Virus record (IMG/VR): IMGVR_UViG_3300042376_000854
Location: 1-32,676 of that record
Strand: one strand, 5' to 3'
Origin: a virus
DNA length: 32,676 nt
The notes below the pieces were generated by a model. It had not been told where the DNA came from. It did not search any database and saw only the letters and a program-made list of their open reading frames with translations. A program made the translations under genes and the position numbers. Of this stretch, positions 3,212 to 30,893 are shown piece after piece (the stretch's first letter is position 1; each line of letters begins with the position of its first letter).

Positions 3212-3448
3212 ATGATACCAGTAAACACCAAATCACTATTTGCACACCTTTGCATTCAAATGGAGAAATTAGACAAAGGAGAAATTGATGCAAGCACCGC
3301 ATCGGCACAAGCAAAACTTGTTGCACAATGTAACAACCTTTTAAACTATGAATTAAAAAGGGCAGTTGTTATTAATGCTATTGAAAGCAATAATGCAAAA
3401 GAGAATATCAGAGAAATTGAAAGTAAAAAATTTGATTCTTTAGTATAA
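3212..3448 (+). CDS. Conserved small phage protein
   Basis: A 78-residue, mostly helical protein. The stretch LFAHLCIQMEKLDKGEIDAS, followed by an Ala/Gln-rich helix and NNLLNYELKRAV, resembles a small protein seen in many phages and prophages that has no assigned function. It heads the rightward operon directly behind a strong promoter, so it is probably made early and in quantity. Its stop codon shares a base with the next start (TAATG). Confidence 0.65.
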   Translation: MIPVNTKSLFAHLCIQMEKLDKGEIDASTASAQAKLVAQCNNLLNYELKRAVVINAIESNNAKENIREIESKKFDSLV

Positions 3449-4080
3449 TGAGTTACGAAATTAAATATTGCGGAGATTGCCATTGCAATCATTCATTTGG
3501 AATAACAAGTGAGATTTGCAAAAAAAGATTTTTTGACATTGCATTGCCTACAAGTATCTATGCATTAAGACTTGTTTTTTGTGCTGAATATTTGAGAAGT
3601 TGTATTCAAACAGAAATGATAAAAAGGGATACAACTTATTTAAGCAATATAGAATCAAAACATATTTTGGAAAAAATTATAATTCCACATTTGCCCAAAA
3701 TTGTTGCTGGAGGTTATAACCCTAAAAAAAGTAGAATAAACAATATTTATTTTACTGTAAACAAAAAACTTGGAATATTTTGTACTTATACTTTTGAAGA
3801 GTGTTTGGAGTTTATTATTAATAATCAAGAAGCAAGGTTTACAAATATTGTAAATTCTGTTGTTTACGAATTAAATAATTATTGCTTATCAAAACAAACT
3901 TATTTAAAGTACAAATCAACTGTTGCTAATTTAATAAGACTGTCAAAACAATTAAAAAAAACTTGTATTTCAAATGAACAAATTGCAATTATCTGTTGCG
4001 AAATAATGACAATAATATTAATGTCAGAATCAGAGGTTAAAAAACAAAACAAAATAATCTTTAAAAACCAACTAACATAA
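3448..4080 (+). CDS. Hypothetical Cys-rich protein, unusually AT-rich
   Basis: A 210-residue protein with no recognised family. The first residues hold several Cys and His (YCGDCHCNHSFGITSEICKK), which could bind a metal. The rest is helical and Lys/Asn/Ile-rich. The base composition is lower in GC than the neighbouring genes by eye, which may mean separate acquisition. It is coupled to the previous gene by TAATG, and its own stop overlaps the ATA that seems to start the 49-codon gene downstream. Confidence 0.6.
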   Translation: MSYEIKYCGDCHCNHSFGITSEICKKRFFDIALPTSIYALRLVFCAEYLRSCIQTEMIKRDTTYLSNIESKHILEKIIIPHLPKIVAGGYNPKKSRINNIYFTVNKKLGIFCTYTFEECLEFIINNQEARFTNIVNSVVYELNNYCLSKQTYLKYKSTVANLIRLSKQLKKTCISNEQIAIICCEIMTIILMSESEVKKQNKIIFKNQLT

Positions 4081-5181: not shown

Positions 5182-5457
5182 ATGAAACACAAAATTTCAA
5201 TTAACCGATTAGCCTTTGCTTTTGCAAGTGTGCTGTTAGTGGCTGGGGCTACATCTTGTTCCCAACCAGACAAAAGAGTAGATATAAATTGCATTTACAA
5301 AGGCGCTATTATCTATAAAAAGTATGATTTTATTAAAATAGATGGCAGCACATTGTATGATATAAAGTATAAAGGAGAGATATTGAAGTATGTGGAAGTT
5401 TACGACATTGACAATGGCTATAATGTTGGTGATACGGTCAACCGCCCTTGCCACTAA
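5182..5457 (+). CDS. Predicted small phage lipoprotein
   Basis: Started at the ATG at 5182, the 91-residue product begins with a basic end and a hydrophobic run (NRLAFAFASVLLVAGATSC) and a Cys at about residue 26, followed by SQPDKR. This resembles a lipoprotein signal, although the residues before the Cys (GATS) are a loose lipobox. The mature part of about 65 residues is beta-rich. A start further upstream (TTG at 5128) would hide the signal and is unlikely. Phage lipoproteins of this size often block infection by related phages or act in lysis; neither is shown here. Confidence 0.6.
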   Translation: MKHKISINRLAFAFASVLLVAGATSCSQPDKRVDINCIYKGAIIYKKYDFIKIDGSTLYDIKYKGEILKYVEVYDIDNGYNVGDTVNRPCH

Positions 5458-5620
5458 CGGTGGCGATTGGCGAAGTAAAAGCCTTGCACTACTGTTGATG
5501 GTTAGCACTACACTTTATGGCTTTTATTTTGCCAATTGCGTGTTAGCTGCTGTTTTTTTCTATTTGATTGTTAGCACTTTAGAAAATAAATTAAAAATAT
5601 CTTTGAAAAAGTTTGCATAA
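5390..5620 (+). CDS. Possible small membrane protein, start uncertain
   Basis: The frame has an open 76-codon stretch whose end encodes a hydrophobic helix (LYGFYFANCVLAAVFFYLIV) and a basic tail (ENKLKISLKKFA). From its first ATG it would overlap the lipoprotein gene by 68 bases. The ATG at 5498 would give a 40-residue single-helix protein and avoids the overlap. No leader stands out before either start. It may be real, or only an open frame in a 209-base gap between genes. Confidence 0.3.
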   Translation: MWKFTTLTMAIMLVIRSTALATNGGDWRSKSLALLLMVSTTLYGFYFANCVLAAVFFYLIVSTLENKLKISLKKFA

Positions 5621-5643
5621 TCAAAATAAGCATTGTATATTTG
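5612..5643 (+). promoter_or_regulatory. Strong Bacteroidota-type promoter
   Basis: TTTG at 5612-5615, a 20-bp spacer, and TATATTTG at 5636-5643 followed by TGGGG. It is the best match to the consensus in the window and sits 23 bases before the ATG at 5667. The -33 part overlaps the end of the possible membrane protein frame. Confidence 0.65.
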
Positions 5644-5666
5644 TGGGGTAATTAAAAACAAACAAA

Positions 5667-5918
5667 ATGGAAGCGTACACAAAACCAACATTTACAGAGC
5701 AAGAAATTGAAAAGTTTGAGAAATTTATTGATAGCCAAATATCCAAAGGTAATCAACAGATATGCTTATCAACGGGTATAGTTACTGATGAAATGGCAAG
5801 ACTTCAAACATATTTAGGTTTTTATTATCCAAGCGGTTCTTTTAGTCCAAATGCAAATTTTAGAAATTACAGAGTAGCAAAAAATGGAAAAAAATATACA
5901 AAAAAAGAAAATTGGTAG
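5667..5918 (+). CDS. Hypothetical protein
   Basis: An 83-residue protein with an acidic helical start (TEQEIEKFEKFIDSQISKGN) and a basic, aromatic end (GFYYPSGSFSPNANFRNYR, then KKYTKKENW). No family is recognised. It follows the strong promoter at 5612-5643 and has an A-rich leader (AAAAACAAACAAA). Its last 35 bases overlap the start of the ribbon-helix-helix-like gene in another frame. Confidence 0.6.
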   Translation: MEAYTKPTFTEQEIEKFEKFIDSQISKGNQQICLSTGIVTDEMARLQTYLGFYYPSGSFSPNANFRNYRVAKNGKKYTKKENW

Positions 5919-14986: not shown

Positions 14987-16099
14987 TTAAGTGTTAGTTG
15001 CTGTGTAACGTAATGCACCGTTGTTTCCAGTTAATCTGTCCGCTGCTAAGTAAGCATCGTTAGGTACTTGCCATAAAGCAAATCTCTTAGACATGATTAA
15101 TGAATAACCTGCGCCAAGTGTAGTTTCTTCATAACCAACAGTTGTTTCAGTAGGGCAATCAAGTTCTCTTAATTGGAAGTCGATGTTTAACATTCCAAGT
15201 AAGCCATCGCTACCAGGTAGGTTAAACGGAACTGCCATGTTCCAGAAAGTTGATAAACCTAATTGCTGAGCTCTAAAGCCTCTGTAACGATCAAGTTCAA
15301 CAAGTCCAAAAGTTCCAGGTTGGAATACACCGAATTGATTTGTACCTACTGCATCTTTCATGTAGATGTCATGGTAGTAATCCATTTGACCCATAGCTGC
15401 GTTGTTGTTCAACTGTGCATATTGAGTCATTGCAGGAATCATTGCTTGCACTGCTGCTGAGTCAACTAATCCGCTACCAACTACAATTGGAGTACCTTGA
15501 CCTTCGTTAAAACGATAGTCAGTCATAATCTTTGTCCAACCTTCTGAAAAGTTGTTTACAGTTGAATCATCGTTAAAGTTCACAGTTACTGCGGTGTTTG
15601 CACCCGTTACTGCGTTCTTACCCCAAACGATTTGACCTAACAATGTTTGGTCGATTTTACCAACAAATCCATTCATTGCAGCCATTAAGCCTGCTAAATG
15701 TTCTTGCATGAATCTTGTAGGTGCGCCACCGATTGAAACGGTTGCAGAAGCCTCATCACAGTAACGTGCGATGGTAGCTTGGTCGAAATGTAATCCGAAT
15801 TTCACGATTGAAGTAGTATCAATAGTGATTTCATCATACGCTTGTACTAAATCAATATCGCAATTATCAGCAGTAGCCATTTGCGCTGGTGTAGTACGTT
15901 GGTAGTATTTCAAACGCAAATCTTTAATATGACCCGCAGTATTTGCAAGTGCTAAAGAATCAGCGATTGGTGTTGCTTGTGCGCCTTTCTCCAAAGTTGC
16001 GCGTAAAAATCCCGAAGGAGTAATCTTATGTTCCGGTGCGTTTTGTCCAATCACATATTTCATGTGTTGTAACATCGCGGGGCAATAACCTAATGCCAT
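14987..16099 (-). CDS. Major capsid protein
   Basis: A 370-residue protein with the size and position of an HK97-type major capsid protein, directly downstream of the scaffold-like gene. It starts MALGYCPAMLQHMKYVIGQN, with an early flexible arm, and has a well-ordered alpha/beta body with few Lys clusters and strong codon regularity. The segment TNQFGVFQPGTFGLVELDRY and the end YSLIMSKRFALWQV are consistent with a folded shell protein. No standard motif exists for this divergent group, so the call depends on order (portal, head protein, scaffold, capsid). Confidence 0.7.
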   Translation of the reverse strand: MALGYCPAMLQHMKYVIGQNAPEHKITPSGFLRATLEKGAQATPIADSLALANTAGHIKDLRLKYYQRTTPAQMATADNCDIDLVQAYDEITIDTTSIVKFGLHFDQATIARYCDEASATVSIGGAPTRFMQEHLAGLMAAMNGFVGKIDQTLLGQIVWGKNAVTGANTAVTVNFNDDSTVNNFSEGWTKIMTDYRFNEGQGTPIVVGSGLVDSAAVQAMIPAMTQYAQLNNNAAMGQMDYYHDIYMKDAVGTNQFGVFQPGTFGLVELDRYRGFRAQQLGLSTFWNMAVPFNLPGSDGLLGMLNIDFQLRELDCPTETTVGYEETTLGAGYSLIMSKRFALWQVPNDAYLAADRLTGNNGALRYTATNT

Positions 16100-18386: not shown

Positions 18387-20085
18387 GTATAACAGTTGCT
18401 AATTTATCTTTAACGCTAATATCTTTCAATTTCTCATCCGCATATTTCGCTAATATCACTTGCTTTTGCGCCTTAGTCAACTCATTAAAGTTAGCATTTT
18501 CAGCATAAGCACGTTCAACGAAATCAAAGATATACGTACTAATAACCGCATCTTGTTTGCTCATCATTCGGTTGCTAACTAACAATGCTTTCTCATCATC
18601 CGTTTTGCCGCTTGCAGGGTCTAAACTAAACGCATCTTTCATTCTGTTTTGCAATCCGACATCGTTCGGGAATCGTTTGTTTATGTATTCCAATTCCATT
18701 TCAGAAAGCACCGCATCGTTTAACGTGCTATCCTTTGCAGCTTTGATTTCTTCAACGATTAACTGAGAGCCGATAATATCAAATGTGTTTGGCACTATCA
18801 TAATCGGCACCATTGCACGAATATCGGCATCATTTGGATAAAGTAAGTTATATCTCCACTTTGCACATAGGTAAGCAATGTTAGTCATAATCGTTCCCAT
18901 ATCAACTGCAACACCATAGAAAGTATTGTTAGTTTCATCTCTATCGTATGCCTTGGCAACACCACTTTGAGCAACGGGTGCAACCTCTAAGAACTGCATA
19001 TTAACCGCAGCAAGTGAACGGTAACGCATTTCGTTAATACGCCTATCTTGCAACTCGGCTATTTCAGTTTGCTTTTGAACATATCCCATCGGTGGTGTTG
19101 GTGCTGGAACTTCACCCATTGATGTTTTCGCGGGTCTTACTCTTAATGTTTCATAAGGGCTTTTCGGTATCTGTCCGCCTTTACACTTGCTATTCGTGCA
19201 AGGTACTTTCTCGTTTTCTTTAATTAAATATCCAACACCATTACACGCAGGGCATTGCTCATCTTGATAAATCCAAACGGTTGAAAATATGTGTTGAGTT
19301 ATCTCGGCTCTAAGGTCTGAAAATTCGACTGTTGCAACATTTAACCAAGGCAACATTGCTTGGAATCGGCTTTGATATTCGCGCCCTAACTCATCTTCGG
19401 ACTCAACAACACCTCCAATCGTAAAGCCTGGGAATATACCTAAGCCATGCTCAGTTTGTTCAACTAATTCATAGCCTTGACCACGTTTCTTTTTGCGCCA
19501 CTTTGACCATGCGAAATCGTCAATTGAGTAGAATAAATCTTTATCGTATTCATCAGTATAAACAACTGATTTTCCTTGAAATGAATAAACAATTCTATCA
19601 CTATTGATTACAAAAGGTTTAGGTTTCTTATACTCCGTTGCTGCGGTTTCTTCTGCCCACAATATAATAACGCCATTGGCATCAATAATATATTGCTTCA
19701 AACCAACTTGAAAAGCCCAATTCATTAACGAATTTGAAGCGGTAAAGTTATAAGTTAAGTAACTTTCCAAGTCCTCACCTTTGGCTATCTTTGATGGCAC
19801 TTCTTTAGGGAATTTTAAATAATACCCATCAGACCTTTGTATCTTATTTAAAGCATTTAATACACGATCAAACACCTCAGCAAACACTGCTTGATATGTT
19901 TTTTTGCGGTATTCTTTAACTTCGGGATTTTCACCTGGTCTTATTTCATCAATAAGTTTGCGCGGGTATTCGGCATCGGAATAGTATCTAAAGTTTTCGT
20001 ATTCTTCGCCCTCTCTGTGAGGGTGCTTTGCGATTGCTTCAATACTTGCAGCATCAATGCGATAGTATTTATTTTCGGTTTCCAT
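18370..20085 (-). CDS. Portal protein with an embedded Cys cluster
   Basis: Started at the ATG that shares a base with the stop of the preceding gene (TAATG), the product has 571 residues. It is the likely portal, the dodecameric ring through which DNA enters the head, from its length, position between terminase and head genes, and helical C-terminal part. At residues about 278-301 it holds CPAC and CTNSKC, a zinc-ribbon-like pair of Cys knuckles. This may be an insertion that stabilises the ring or binds another part. A longer start at 20112 would overlap the glycosyltransferase gene and is less likely. Confidence 0.65.
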   Translation of the reverse strand: METENKYYRIDAASIEAIAKHPHREGEEYENFRYYSDAEYPRKLIDEIRPGENPEVKEYRKKTYQAVFAEVFDRVLNALNKIQRSDGYYLKFPKEVPSKIAKGEDLESYLTYNFTASNSLMNWAFQVGLKQYIIDANGVIILWAEETAATEYKKPKPFVINSDRIVYSFQGKSVVYTDEYDKDLFYSIDDFAWSKWRKKKRGQGYELVEQTEHGLGIFPGFTIGGVVESEDELGREYQSRFQAMLPWLNVATVEFSDLRAEITQHIFSTVWIYQDEQCPACNGVGYLIKENEKVPCTNSKCKGGQIPKSPYETLRVRPAKTSMGEVPAPTPPMGYVQKQTEIAELQDRRINEMRYRSLAAVNMQFLEVAPVAQSGVAKAYDRDETNNTFYGVAVDMGTIMTNIAYLCAKWRYNLLYPNDADIRAMVPIMIVPNTFDIIGSQLIVEEIKAAKDSTLNDAVLSEMELEYINKRFPNDVGLQNRMKDAFSLDPASGKTDDEKALLVSNRMMSKQDAVISTYIFDFVERAYAENANFNELTKAQKQVILAKYADEKLKDISVKDKLATVILGPSE

Positions 20086-20951
20086 TAGTAAGTATGGCGT
20101 TCTGGTGCCCATCTTCTTTTGGGCTGTTGTAAAAATTTATATCGCATGTTCATTCGCATTGCGTGAATCTGCACAAGGTTGTTATAAGTTGTTAATTGAA
20201 CTTCACTTATTCTGTTGCCTCCAATGGAAACACCACAATAGTCATCTTTTAAATCTTTTAATCGCAATGTTTTAGTTGAGTCCATCGGCCAGAAAGTAGG
20301 GTGAAACATTTCTTGATGACAGTCAACACCTAACTGGCACATTGAAATCCAAAGCGGTAATTCATCGGGAATGCAACCTGCAAACTCAATGTTTTTTACT
20401 CTAATGTTTTCAAAGTTTTCTACCCATTTAGCAAATACGGGATGGCCCTTTTTCCACCATATAAACTCACTGTGAACATTCCAAATCTTTTCGTTGGTAA
20501 AGTTAAATGCCTCTTTTACTTCTAATAAATTAGCCCATTGTTTTGCATCGGGTGTGATTTTTTCGGAGTCGTAAGGTGTGAATCCACTGTTTTTGATGGC
20601 AAAATCAACACCACTAAGTTGCGAAATAACTTCATTAATCTTACCATTGTTAATCATAATTACATCGGCATCAATAAACAAGGTGTAATCATACGGTGTT
20701 AACTCATCCATGTGAGCTTTGGCCTTTATGAAACACGTTGAGTTATCGCCAAGTGTATAGCAATGTGGCTCAATGTATTTAATTTCGGTAAACAAATTAC
20801 GGTAATCGTCATCTAAACGTGTGATTGTTTCAAGTTGAGTAACCAATGTTATTGGCAACTCGCAACCGTTTGCACGTAATGACATTGCAAGGTTGGCAGC
20901 CATGCAACCGTAGTTTTTATGGCCTATTGCTATTAAAAGTATTCCTATCAT
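20085..20951 (-). CDS. GT-A-type glycosyltransferase inside the late operon
   Basis: A 288-residue protein with the look of a nucleotide-sugar transferase. It starts MIGILLIAIGHKNYGCMAAN, and at residues 90-100 has YDYTLFIDADVIMI, where DAD (94-96) is the metal and sugar-nucleotide motif. Later segments, WWKKGHPVFAKWVENFE and DELPLWISMCQLGV, fit the acceptor side of the fold. It is flanked by tail and portal genes with stop-start overlaps at both ends, so it is part of the late transcript. It may glycosylate a virion protein or a host surface sugar. The acceptor is unknown. Confidence 0.65.
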   Translation of the reverse strand: MIGILLIAIGHKNYGCMAANLAMSLRANGCELPITLVTQLETITRLDDDYRNLFTEIKYIEPHCYTLGDNSTCFIKAKAHMDELTPYDYTLFIDADVIMINNGKINEVISQLSGVDFAIKNSGFTPYDSEKITPDAKQWANLLEVKEAFNFTNEKIWNVHSEFIWWKKGHPVFAKWVENFENIRVKNIEFAGCIPDELPLWISMCQLGVDCHQEMFHPTFWPMDSTKTLRLKDLKDDYCGVSIGGNRISEVQLTTYNNLVQIHAMRMNMRYKFLQQPKRRWAPERHTY

Positions 20952-27151: not shown

Positions 27152-27434
27152 AATAATATAGTTTACTTATTAAAGCATTTACACCACATAGCACCAATAG
27201 ATAAGGTACTATTGCAAGGCTTGGCATGAGGTAAAACCAACCAAGTAAACCCCAAACCGAAGCCATGCAAGGTGGGCAGTCGAATAGTGGTTTGCTGCTA
27301 TATTCACCAACTATTGACCTAATATATTCAGCAACGGGTGCAAATAACATCCCATCGCGTGTTAGTACGTGAACGCCTAAACAAACGAGGCTATTCAGGA
27401 CAAGTACAAGGAATAGTTCCGTATGAATTATCAT
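27141..27434 (-). CDS. Membrane protein with a CPPCMAS motif
   Basis: A 97-residue protein with hydrophobic segments at about 5-22 (TELFLVLVLNSLVCLGVHVL) and 70-88 (YLMPSLAIVPYLLVLCGVNA). Between them it reads KPLFDCPPCMASVWGLLGWF, a CxxC pair before a Trp-rich helix. I recall similar small phage membrane proteins with this CPxCMASxWG motif but no function. The start overlaps the upstream gene by 44 bases. A role as a tail-operon membrane accessory cannot be excluded. Confidence 0.5.
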   Translation of the reverse strand: MIIHTELFLVLVLNSLVCLGVHVLTRDGMLFAPVAEYIRSIVGEYSSKPLFDCPPCMASVWGLLGWFYLMPSLAIVPYLLVLCGVNALISKLYYYGD

Positions 27435-27762
27435 CTTGTGTAATGTTTATAAAGTTAACTGTTATTGATGAGTAGGTTAAATCGCAAACGGTGAAGTTAA
27501 TTGGTGCGCAATTGCTATCTGCAGTATAAACCTCAACTAATACTGGTCCCGTTCCAACGTGCCAAAAGTTATTGTTTGCAACAACTAAATCACCAGTGTA
27601 TTCACTTGCTTCAATCGTGCGCTTTACTACCCATCCATTAGGATAAGTCATTTTAACAATGTAATCATTACCTGCAACAAGTGTCGAGTTAGTAATTACA
27701 AGTTCTTCAACACACCCGCTAATATCTTGGGTGTAGGTTGGTAGGCAGTTTAGTATTGGCAT
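27391..27762 (-). CDS. Small beta-rich structural-type protein
   Basis: Started at the ATG at 27762 the product has 123 residues (MPILNCLPTYTQDISGCVEE). A start 12 codons upstream at 27798 is a TTG and lacks a leader. The protein is strand-rich with Cys residues (NCLP, SGC, NCAP, VCD, CTC) and few charges, which suits an external virion protein. It comes before the membrane protein and chaperone genes. Nothing closer can be named. Confidence 0.5.
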   Translation of the reverse strand: MPILNCLPTYTQDISGCVEELVITNSTLVAGNDYIVKMTYPNGWVVKRTIEASEYTGDLVVANNNFWHVGTGPVLVEVYTADSNCAPINFTVCDLTYSSITVNFINITQDDNSYGTIPCTCPE

Positions 27763-27764
27763 TG

Positions 27765-27827
27765 TTATTTTCTGTATTGTGCCATGCGAGTCCACCAAAG
27801 GATTAAGGCAATTATTATTTCTATCAT
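27765..27827 (-). CDS. 20-residue hydrophobic micro-protein
   Basis: The ATG at 27827 opens a 20-codon frame (MIEIIIALILWW then TRMAQYRK) that starts 6 bases after the stop of the TOD1-like gene and ends 2 bases before the next ATG. It would be a single-span membrane peptide with a basic tail. Both ends fit tightly between the neighbours, but the frame is very short, so the case is only suggestive. Confidence 0.3.
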   Translation of the reverse strand: MIEIIIALILWWTRMAQYRK

Positions 27828-27833
27828 ATTGTT

Positions 27834-28487
27834 TTAGTTATAATTCATTAATTCTGTATTCAACAAATCGAAGTCAAAGGTAATATATTTTGTTTTAAAC
27901 TTATGCAATAAATATGGTAAACTTAATTGGTCTTGAACTGAATAAATGTTATTGTGAAAAAACCATTCTTTTAATAAATTATATTCAGTATTTTCAACCA
28001 ACTTGCTTGAATAAATAAAACAACCAGCAGCAAACAACTTATTGTCAACAAATGTTTTATCGCTTAAATAATCCTCCACTTGTTTATCCATGTGTTCGCC
28101 AACGTATCTGCTATTTAAATAATGATTGCCCTGCTCAATTAAAATGTTTACAAACTCTAATTCGGTTTGTATGCTGCATCTATGTGAATGATTAAACAAA
28201 CCTATCTCAGCATCGCCTAATTGATTAATAAGGGTTTCAATTATACCGTTATTTAATGTAAACTTTGAGTCAACCCAAATGTAATAATCATAACCAGGAC
28301 TTGAAATCCATTCTAACATTTTAGGTATTTTACCCTTCAACCTTGGGTGCATGCTCAATAACCTTGATGGTGTGTTTGAGTCATTGTATATTTTAACATC
28401 GACATTTAACCTTTCAATCTCTTCTTGATTGTTAACGATAAGACTTTGATTATCGCCAAAGTTGCATGATACAAGTCTTATTTTCAT
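27834..28487 (-). CDS. TOD1/MUCI70-like glycosyltransferase
   Basis: A 217-residue protein. Segments SRLLSMHPRLKGKIPKMLEW and YDYYIWVDSKFTL (about residues 41-78) resemble the TOD1/MUCI70 glycosyltransferase-like domain (formerly DUF616), in which a basic-aromatic stretch precedes WxD. A later DQLSLPY and a C-terminal aromatic segment fit the same family. It lies in the glycosyltransferase/methyltransferase cluster and overlaps the methyltransferase gene by 4 bases (ATGA). It may use a nucleotide sugar to modify a virion protein or host glycan; the acceptor is unknown. Confidence 0.55.
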   Translation of the reverse strand: MKIRLVSCNFGDNQSLIVNNQEEIERLNVDVKIYNDSNTPSRLLSMHPRLKGKIPKMLEWISSPGYDYYIWVDSKFTLNNGIIETLINQLGDAEIGLFNHSHRCSIQTELEFVNILIEQGNHYLNSRYVGEHMDKQVEDYLSDKTFVDNKLFAAGCFIYSSKLVENTEYNLLKEWFFHNNIYSVQDQLSLPYLLHKFKTKYITFDFDLLNTELMNYN

Positions 28488-29062
28488 TGCTTTGTTATTT
28501 TGTAAATAATTTCAACTCCGTAACCAGTTGGTGTTTTTAGCGTTTGAACTTCAACAAGTTTAGGCGAGAATGATTCTAATATTTCATTAAATTCTTTTTT
28601 TGAAATTGATAAATCAGGCACATCAACTCCATGTTTTAAATTATGCGCCAACTCTTTTGTTTCACTATCACTTAATGGAATAAACAAAGTTACTACCACC
28701 TTGTTAACTGCTGAGCATAAAGCGTTATTTAGTATTTTTTGCCAATTATAATTATGTTCTAATACATGCCTTAGATGTATTCCGTTTGCCAATGTCGTAT
28801 AATTACATAAATCAATAAATTTCTTATCTGCAAACGGAGTATCGCTGCCATCAACACCAATTGCATTTGGTAAATGATTTAAAAAACCACCTGCTCCAAC
28901 TCCCCAATCTTCAACAACATCTAAGCCTCTTAAAAAATCGGCAGCTATATTGTATGTTTCTGTTTCGGAATACTTATATGCGCTCGGTGTTGTTCCTAAG
29001 TCTTTATACCAATTATCCCACTTATTTACGTTACTTTGCATACTTTGTCTTATAAATTTCAT
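28484..29062 (-). CDS. Class I SAM-dependent methyltransferase-like protein
   Basis: A 192-residue protein with a methyltransferase motif I at about 51-60 (EDWGVGAGGF) followed by VDGSD (70-74), the pattern for S-adenosylmethionine binding. LRHVLEHNYNWQKILNNAL resembles the motif after the core sheet in class I enzymes. The next strand (KVVVTLFIPL) fits the fold. No DNA-methylase motif (DPPY or PCQ) was seen, so a small-molecule or sugar substrate is more likely than DNA. It overlaps the upstream glycosyltransferase by 32 bases; a later ATG at 29041 is possible. Confidence 0.55.
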   Translation of the reverse strand: MKFIRQSMQSNVNKWDNWYKDLGTTPSAYKYSETETYNIAADFLRGLDVVEDWGVGAGGFLNHLPNAIGVDGSDTPFADKKFIDLCNYTTLANGIHLRHVLEHNYNWQKILNNALCSAVNKVVVTLFIPLSDSETKELAHNLKHGVDVPDLSISKKEFNEILESFSPKLVEVQTLKTPTGYGVEIIYKITKQ

Positions 29063-29639
29063 TATCCCTTAACTGAATCATTCCAAACTCCTCCAGTCTT
29101 GAAGTTGTGCTAATCTCTGATTGCAACGCTAAGCCATGTAATACAAACGGTGTCGCGTGTTGAGCCAACCAATCATCACCGTTGGCGATAAGTAGGTCAT
29201 CAGGTATAGGTACATACTTTGATTTGTGTATTAACATTAAACAACCCCATCCATAAGGTCGGTCTTTCATTGGTTTTAAGTGAATATTATGGTCTGCCTT
29301 TAGTTGGTAGTTGCTAAAGTCCATGCCGATTATGCCAGTGTGCTGCAAACTGTCATCATAGATACCTAAGAATGATGGATTGAAGTTAATATCATCGTTG
29401 CAAATTAATATGTTCTCAAATTGGGAACGTTCAACTCCGTAATTCCATGATGGGTTGACGTAGGTGTTTTCGGGCATTAAGTGGATTGATAACTTTGCGC
29501 TTTCGGGCGTTGGCCTATACTCACTTGGGTTGTTATCAATAACTATCACCTCTCCCACAAACTCACACGCGCAAAGGTCAGCTATGAGTTGCGTTATACG
29601 TGGTGACTTCCAAAGTGTAGGGATTATTGCTGTGAACAT
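29031..29639 (-). CDS. GT2-like glycosyltransferase
   Basis: A 202-residue protein with the start of a family 2 glycosyltransferase: MFTAIIPTLWKSPRITQLIA, followed by VIVIDNNPSEYRP (residues 31-43). The middle has ENILICNDDINFNP with NDD (81-83) in the metal site. It is short for the family, so it may be a trimmed version. It is the first gene of the modification cluster and lies right behind a promoter-like element at 29658. It likely adds a sugar with the other two enzymes, but the target is unknown. Confidence 0.55.
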   Translation of the reverse strand: MFTAIIPTLWKSPRITQLIADLCACEFVGEVIVIDNNPSEYRPTPESAKLSIHLMPENTYVNPSWNYGVERSQFENILICNDDINFNPSFLGIYDDSLQHTGIIGMDFSNYQLKADHNIHLKPMKDRPYGWGCLMLIHKSKYVPIPDDLLIANGDDWLAQHATPFVLHGLALQSEISTTSRLEEFGMIQLRDNEIYKTKYAK

Positions 29640-29654: not shown

Positions 29655-30893
29655 CTACAAATATATAAAATTTTTTAAATATGTATTACAAGCATATCGA
29701 AAAGTATCTAAAGCATCGGCTTGTTGTGTTGGATCGTTTCGGTCTGTTTTTTTAATAGTGCCATCTGGAAGTACTGCCACGTTTTCTAAATCGAATTGTA
29801 AACCCTTAGTTCCATCAGGGTCAAGTTCAATAATGCCACGTGCAAGTAATGAATTAACCAACATACGATTTTCTTCCAATGATGGGTTAACAGTCGGCAC
29901 CAACATTTGATTCATTGATAGCCCAAACTTTTGCCTTATCACAGTGTAATAGTTGAGGTTATCTTGCACTAATGCGCTTGATGATTTGCCACTTGCATCA
30001 CCCGTTACTTGGTAAAGTGCATTGCCATACTTTGATTTAATCACATCGCAAAGTTCGTAGATGTCGGAGTTGGCAAGTTTTATTGTTTCCTTAACGCGAA
30101 TTGTCATCGGTGGTATTGCCTGCAACACTGAGCAACAAATCGGGTTACGGTTAAAATCGAAGCTAAGTATTATTGGGAATTGTTTGTTTAGCGTTACCGG
30201 TACAAGATGCTTTTGGGAGTCGTAGGCGTAGGCCCATCTCATTGAGCCGATGCTAACATCCTGAGCCATGTACTCACAATTAAAATAAAGAATATCCAAC
30301 GTTGCTGCCGCTTGGTCTATTTCTTCCTTGCTCATGTGTGGATTGTCATAGGTTGTAAATGTCCATGACTGCCAAATGTTATAAGGGTCGTTCAAATGGT
30401 TTTTAGCCAACTGTTTGAAGTAGGTGTTGCCAAAAGCGGGAGTTGATAGAAACCAACAATCGCCAATGTAATCGGTTAATGTTGCCCTGATAACTCCTTT
30501 CCATGCGATTTCTAACTTTGATGCCTTTTCGCACTCATCAATAACCACGCGCTTATATTTTCGGCCTCTGCCTCCGTTGCCATCTTCTAAACTCCACATA
30601 TCAATTATGCCGCCCGTAATTAACCTCAACTGTTTTACTTGTTCATCCTTTGACTTTATTATTGGGTAAAGTATTTCTTTAATCTTAAGCCAAAAGTCGT
30701 TTAAATCTTTATAAGTTGGTGCATAATAAGCAACTGGGAAACCATCTAATGCGGGGTCGATTACTAATTCCTCTGCCATTGTTGTTTTACCAAAACGCCT
30801 ACCACATTTCAAAACATTAAATCGCTTCTTTGTTTCTAAAATGTGTTGCTGCTTAGAATGTAACTTCTTGAGTTTAATTATGGTTTCACTCAC
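29655..30893 (-). CDS. terL: Terminase large subunit
   Basis: A 412-residue protein with the full TerL layout. Walker A-like GRRFGKTT is at 31-38, Walker B VVIDE at about 116-120, the coupling motif STPAF at 150-154, and the nuclease acidic residues SFDFNRNP (D246), TGDASG (D299) and QADALDTFRY (D393, D396). The protein moves DNA into the portal and cuts it. It starts within the end of the small terminase gene (8-base overlap). The length is typical. A promoter-like element sits at its very end (29658-29691). Confidence 0.9.
   Translation of the reverse strand: MSETIIKLKKLHSKQQHILETKKRFNVLKCGRRFGKTTMAEELVIDPALDGFPVAYYAPTYKDLNDFWLKIKEILYPIIKSKDEQVKQLRLITGGIIDMWSLEDGNGGRGRKYKRVVIDECEKASKLEIAWKGVIRATLTDYIGDCWFLSTPAFGNTYFKQLAKNHLNDPYNIWQSWTFTTYDNPHMSKEEIDQAAATLDILYFNCEYMAQDVSIGSMRWAYAYDSQKHLVPVTLNKQFPIILSFDFNRNPICCSVLQAIPPMTIRVKETIKLANSDIYELCDVIKSKYGNALYQVTGDASGKSSSALVQDNLNYYTVIRQKFGLSMNQMLVPTVNPSLEENRMLVNSLLARGIIELDPDGTKGLQFDLENVAVLPDGTIKKTDRNDPTQQADALDTFRYACNTYLKNFIYL
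29658..29691 (-). promoter_or_regulatory. Promoter-like element for the modification cluster
   Basis: On the minus strand TATATTTG (29665-29658) fits TAnnTTTG, with TTG (29691-29689) 23 bp upstream, a little longer than usual. It overlaps the last codons and stop of terL and points at the GT2-like start at 29639, 18 bases downstream. If active it would let the cluster be expressed apart from the packaging genes. Confidence 0.4.

Follow-up and report, generated by a model that had tools for sequence, protein, structure and literature searches.

Glycosyltransferase and methyltransferase genes behind terL

The window, by which we mean the whole stretch of DNA analyzed, is a viral contig of 32,676 bases from a water-borne phage. 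It is probably a near-complete phage genome of approximately 33 kb because the 36-kb record of a relative carries a probable capsid gene at both ends. One virion protein showed weak matches to Polaribacter, Tenacibaculum, and Leeuwenhoekiella phages, among others, which suggests a Bacteroidota host. A gene for a DnaB-like helicase (32668-31697) is cut by the end of the window and encodes 323-325 aa, versus 478 aa in the relative L028.

The first-pass annotation placed three overlapping genes between terL and the tail genes. This arrangement was confirmed: all three are minus-strand ORFs (Table 1), terL ends 15 nt upstream of GT2, and virion genes are located downstream of the slot, which we define as the interval from terL to the small gene g27391. 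The MT2 ORF opens at 29062 (29062-28484, 192 aa), and the ATG at 29041 is its probable translation start, given that a homolog in a large phage begins near this position. With this start, the overlap is 11 nt between GT2 and MT2 and 4 nt between MT2 and TOD1. A scan for promoters and terminators revealed nothing above the chance level. Homologs of the three ORFs occur in many contigs, and dN/dS was 0.07-0.21 in pairs with unsaturated dS. Therefore, the ORFs are not chance products, and the enzymes are under purifying selection where this is measurable.

Table 1. Coordinates of the genes and features discussed in the text.
Feature	Coordinates	Strand	Remarks
GT2, GT-A-fold, GT2-like glycosyltransferase (predicted)	29031..29639	-	202 aa; resident after terL in almost all of the group
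MT2, class I SAM-dependent methyltransferase (predicted)	28484..29041	-	185 aa from the likely start; first half of the cassette
TOD1, TOD1/MUCI70-family (PF04765) GT-A-fold glycosyltransferase (predicted)	27834..28487	-	217 aa; second half of the cassette
Exchangeable MT2+TOD1 cassette	27834..29041	-	Delimited by DNA identity steps and low G+C
GTx, GT-A-like glycosyltransferase candidate	20085..20951	-	288 aa; between two virion genes; universal in the group
terL	29655..30893	-	Upstream neighbor marking the slot
g27391, small gene	27391..27798	-	Downstream end of the slot; start probably the ATG at 27762
Probable major capsid protein	14987..16099	-	By conservation and position; candidate glycan acceptor

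GT2 scored 13.8 bits against PF00535, below the curated Pfam cut-off of 23.3 (best relative, 22.0), and is, therefore, only named GT2-like. Its structure model, based on 24 aligned relatives, reached a pLDDT of 92 and matched GT-A glycosyltransferases in the PDB with E values of 5e-9 to 1e-6, including B4GALNT1, the fucosyltransferase WrtF, TarS, and TarP. The motifs I6 P7 T8 and N81 D82 D83, representing an N-terminal IPT-type strand and an acidic metal motif, were invariant in the 24 sequences. A BLAST search with GT2 against named phages gave no match. The profile and structure evidence provides good support for the prediction that GT2 is a GT-A-fold, GT2-like glycosyltransferase.

TOD1 exceeded the cut-off of PF04765 (38.9 bits; cut-off, 21.4), as did a homolog in the contig L006 (31.6). 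The TOD1 model (pLDDT 85) adopted a GT-A fold, with Z scores of up to 11.8 against GT-A chains in the PDB. The Z score was 11.2 against 2p72, the solved glycosyltransferase domain from PBCV-1 capsid glycosylation, at a low sequence identity (14%). The top match in the viral library BFVD was a TOD1/MUCI70 protein (E 9e-15), and the fold also resembled S0A439 of the Cellulophaga phage phi18:2 (E 2e-12). By sequence, a profile search with TOD1 against solved structures gave no match, and BLAST against named phages only yielded weak cyanophage, marine, and gut matches. Arabidopsis TOD1 is reported to be an alkaline ceramidase (PMC4309442). The assignment of the window protein as a predicted TOD1/MUCI70-type glycosyltransferase of the GT-A fold is well supported by the profile and the model. 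TOD1 relatives with 34-41% identity were also found in Synechococcus/Prochlorococcus contigs (L159-L165), mostly as lone genes and with two copies in some genomes.

MT2 did not reach the Pfam cut-off of PF13489 (15.6 bits; cut-off, 27), and 5 of 7 relatives gave weak matches to this family (best, 0.0017). Motif I (EDWGxGxGG) and IGxDGSD, which contains the acidic residue after strand 2, were invariant in 7 sequences. Furthermore, distant members of the MT2 family matched the profile of MT1 (phrog_32762, E ~3e-6), a methyltransferase that differs from MT2 and is the usual gene after GT2. MT2 had no BLAST match among named phages, and the best hit in a profile search by sequence against solved structures only had an E value of 0.4. 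Both MT2 and MT1 were weakly or moderately similar to Methyltransf_23 and small-molecule methyltransferases, but not to DNA methyltransferase families. We consider MT2 to be a predicted class I SAM methyltransferase, which is well supported by the invariant motifs and the bridging relatives. The three enzyme classes proposed by the first-pass annotation (GT2-like, SAM methyltransferase-like, and TOD1/MUCI70-like) were thus supported by Pfam for TOD1, by motifs and bridging relatives for MT2, and by structure models for GT2 and TOD1; in the structure search that it had recommended, both models fell among GT-A glycosyltransferases.

GTx is a further glycosyltransferase-like gene of the late operon and was absent from that earlier finding. 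It was present in 17 of 17 relatives, with D94 and D96 of its DxD motif invariant. Similarities to the mannosyltransferases of PF11051 (best, 1.4e-4 among the relatives, with the window copy below the cut-off) and to glycogenin (E 0.13) were weak. Identity to near relatives was 86-91% for GTx and approximately 51-76% for its structural neighbors. On these sequence comparisons, GTx is probably a second resident glycosyltransferase of the group. No clear membrane segment was detected in the four proteins checked (GT2, MT2, TOD1, and GTx).

Resident and exchanged parts of the slot

Searches of viral contigs returned 66 loci with a GT2 relative and 76 with a terL relative, and the slot was read in 45 distinct relatives. 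GT2 followed terL in all 45. The order terL-GT2-MT1 was found in 41, terL-GT2-MT2-TOD1 in three, and terL-GT2-TOD1 in one. Therefore, the relatives generally pair GT2 with a methyltransferase and differ in which methyltransferase module they carry. The slot of L028 contained GT2-MT3-TOD1, in which MT3 is a third kind of methyltransferase, and the slot of L106 contained neither GT2 nor a methyltransferase gene. An extra small gene was observed in L102 (10855-11181) between genes of the g27391 and g27141 types. The comparison provides good support for the view that, in the window, an imported MT2+TOD1 cassette has replaced the usual MT1 behind GT2. The set had previously been regarded as the most unusual cargo of the window. 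This does not apply to GT2 with a methyltransferase behind terL, which is the norm (41/45); however, the imported MT2+TOD1 replacement is unusual.

DNA identity between the window and two relatives, L025 and L021, was 64-81% over most of GT2. It increased to 87-99% at the end of GT2, stayed in this range through TOD1, and decreased to 49-63% in the next gene. Silent divergence was 0.09 in MT2 and 0.19 in TOD1, whereas it was saturated in the adjoining GT2. When 36 genes were compared across nine relatives, the late genes of the window, apart from the cassette, were no closer to those of the two full-cassette carriers than to those of the six with MT1. The cassette genes were also AT-richer (G+C 30-33%) than the flanking late genes (~38-41%). 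Since the cassette is approximately 90-99% identical to two relatives at the DNA level between flanks of approximately 50-80%, its recent transfer is well supported by the sequence comparison. Co-variation of g27391 with the cassette was ruled out; this gene was 84% identical to that of the MT1-bearing L083 and 50% identical to those of the cassette-bearing relatives.

Other parts of the window also differed in their relationships. A gene at 3448-4080 was 99% identical to G008 and was not found in the eight other relatives compared, making it another recently exchanged gene. terL was a mosaic: residues 219-412 of most near relatives (e.g., L025 6698-8008) were approximately 91% identical to the window, and the N-terminal ATPase half was unmatched. 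The terL of L083 was 94% identical to that of the window over its full length. These patterns suggest that the ATPase half was exchanged within the gene.

Relatives of MT2 and TOD1 with 47-65% identity were adjacent in L006 (a 368-kb contig), L008, and L009; the pair also occurs in large phages that are unrelated to that of the window. Of 26 distant MT2 loci, 11 contained a TOD1 gene, which always touched MT2 but could precede or follow it. Glycosyltransferases were frequent among the genes neighboring distant MT2, with 20 of 73 matching PF00535. Moreover, L010 (7386-8684) encoded a different methyltransferase domain fused to a TOD1 domain (MT::TOD1), directly behind a GT2 relative. The exchange of MT2+TOD1 between phages as a swappable pair is well supported by these loci, and it appears as if the final decoration of a glycan were being exchanged. 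We tentatively speculate that unrelated lineages, from 33-kb to giant phages, draw on a common pool of methyltransferase/TOD1 'glycan tip' cassettes, which they exchange at fixed positions of the virion operon, and that the particle surface type switches by replacement in a manner similar to a phage serotype system; at present, we regard this as possible rather than probable.

Putative target of the glycan and alternative roles

The first-pass annotation proposed a sugar pathway expressed with virion genes. The enzyme classes and gene order agree with this proposal, and position and analogy make particle decoration the best reading. We propose, with a probability of approximately 0.6, that a virion protein receives a glycan from a late pathway, with the exchangeable module setting the methylated tip of this glycan. 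A short glycan would be produced in the cytoplasm of the host while the late genes are expressed, with the late timing taken from gene order only. GT2, and probably also GTx, would attach and extend sugars, presumably from the nucleotide-sugar pool of the host. A SAM-dependent methyltransferase may then cap the sugar, and MT1 would make this cap in most of the group, assuming this order of reactions. In the window, TOD1 would add a further sugar and MT2 would methylate that sugar or its neighbor, resulting in a different particle tip. The acceptor would most likely be a virion protein of the phage itself, and the benefit may be an altered antigenic or adhesive particle surface.

The probable major capsid protein is a candidate acceptor and was found in 16 of 17 relatives with 78-87% identity; its C terminus (TATNT/TATNS) is conserved, which proves nothing about a role as an acceptor. 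A search for a conserved Ser/Thr-rich acceptor tail did not reveal an outstanding candidate. A late-region protein of 568 aa (11750-10044) contains 25% Ser/Thr, is poorly conserved (36-62%), and is possibly a tail fiber or receptor-binding protein. In the phage contig L169, which also carries TOD1, a protein with a long threonine-rich tail (5280-5777) is encoded beside a sugar-transferase-like gene and may be a glycan acceptor.

A virion target is favored, at a similar level of confidence, by gene position and by the parallels with Corndog and PBCV-1. In the mycobacteriophage Corndog, gp35-gp38 (an O-methyltransferase, two glycosyltransferases, and a putative N-acetylglucosaminyltransferase) are encoded between the portal and protease and have been proposed as capsid modifiers (PMC4351075). 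Corndog proteins are reported to be glycosylated, with gp38 named as essential for capsid glycosylation (PMC12363180). Corndog and the window both have glycosyltransferase and methyltransferase genes within the virion structural operon. However, the Corndog set does not lie behind terL, as in the window, and the hosts differ. In PBCV-1, the tip of the capsid glycan is built by A064R, which combines two glycosyltransferases with a methyltransferase (PMC9614988). A064R/A061L and the window set share this composition of two glycosyltransferases and a methyltransferase, and A064R both builds and methylates the tip; however, A064R is one fused polypeptide of a eukaryotic giant virus, whereas the window has three separate overlapping genes.

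Other phages show a partial likeness. In the Synechococcus phage S-CBS4 (gp14-16) and the Pontimonas phage phiPsal1 (gp10-12), a GT2-like gene adjoins MT1 in the head module; however, these unrelated phages of other hosts have MT1 instead of MT2+TOD1 and an extra larger glycosyltransferase. The Cellulophaga phage phi18:1 (gp41), likened by gene content, has a glycosyltransferase and a methyltransferase in its structural module, but the methyltransferase has been described as acting on DNA (PMC11946311). In Che8, another glycosylated mycobacteriophage, the glycosyltransferases are located at the right genome end and not in the virion operon. Profile comparisons of GT2 with Che8 gp110 and of TOD1 with Che8 gp109, the two Che8 enzymes tested, detected no similarity. 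A glycosyltransferase with a methyltransferase in a virion operon is a known theme that is normal in this group, and the new element is the TOD1-bearing imported cassette and its exchange.

A late change of the host surface polysaccharide is a serious rival, although we consider it rather unlikely. In this case, the cap would alter the receptor and not the particle, leading to receptor masking, superinfection exclusion, or progeny release. Soluble glycosyltransferases can use lipid-linked sugars in the cytoplasm, and cap swapping would suit hosts with varied surfaces. One cellular TOD1 relative was located near a sugar transferase, and long glycosyltransferase/methyltransferase islands are present in large phages and in the Synechococcus phage S-SCSM1, in which the island includes nucleotide-sugar epimerases. 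However, the slot showed no membrane glycosyltransferase, flippase, or acyltransferase of the sort found in serotype-converting gtr/oac modules, and the proteins are without clear membrane segments. Furthermore, three unrelated phage groups keep these genes within the head/tail module, which suggests that their timing and target lie with virion assembly.

It is improbable that the cassette is a passenger without a role in the particle, such as a moron producing a secreted or intracellular glycoside. Its mobility, AT-richness, and absence from most relatives are consistent with this possibility; however, it takes the place of the methyltransferase instead of being inserted beside it, its reading frame overlaps GT2, and it is under purifying selection. 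Decoration of phage DNA against restriction, by glycosylation and methylation of modified bases, is very improbable: glycosylation of DNA by virus glycosyltransferases is reported (PMC12619734), but no thymidylate-synthase/hydroxymethylase-type enzyme (PF00303) was found in 14 records (the window and 13 relatives; a control search was positive in 9 of 14), and MT2 and MT1 are unlike DNA methyltransferases, as described above.

Glycosylated phage particles have been documented in few phages. If the proposed decoration of the particle is correct, a conserved glycosyltransferase with an interchangeable methyltransferase module in a common group of aquatic phages would suggest that the glycosylation of particles is both widespread and diversifying. 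With related phages carrying different caps, adsorption and recognition of the particle could then be compared in a natural experiment.
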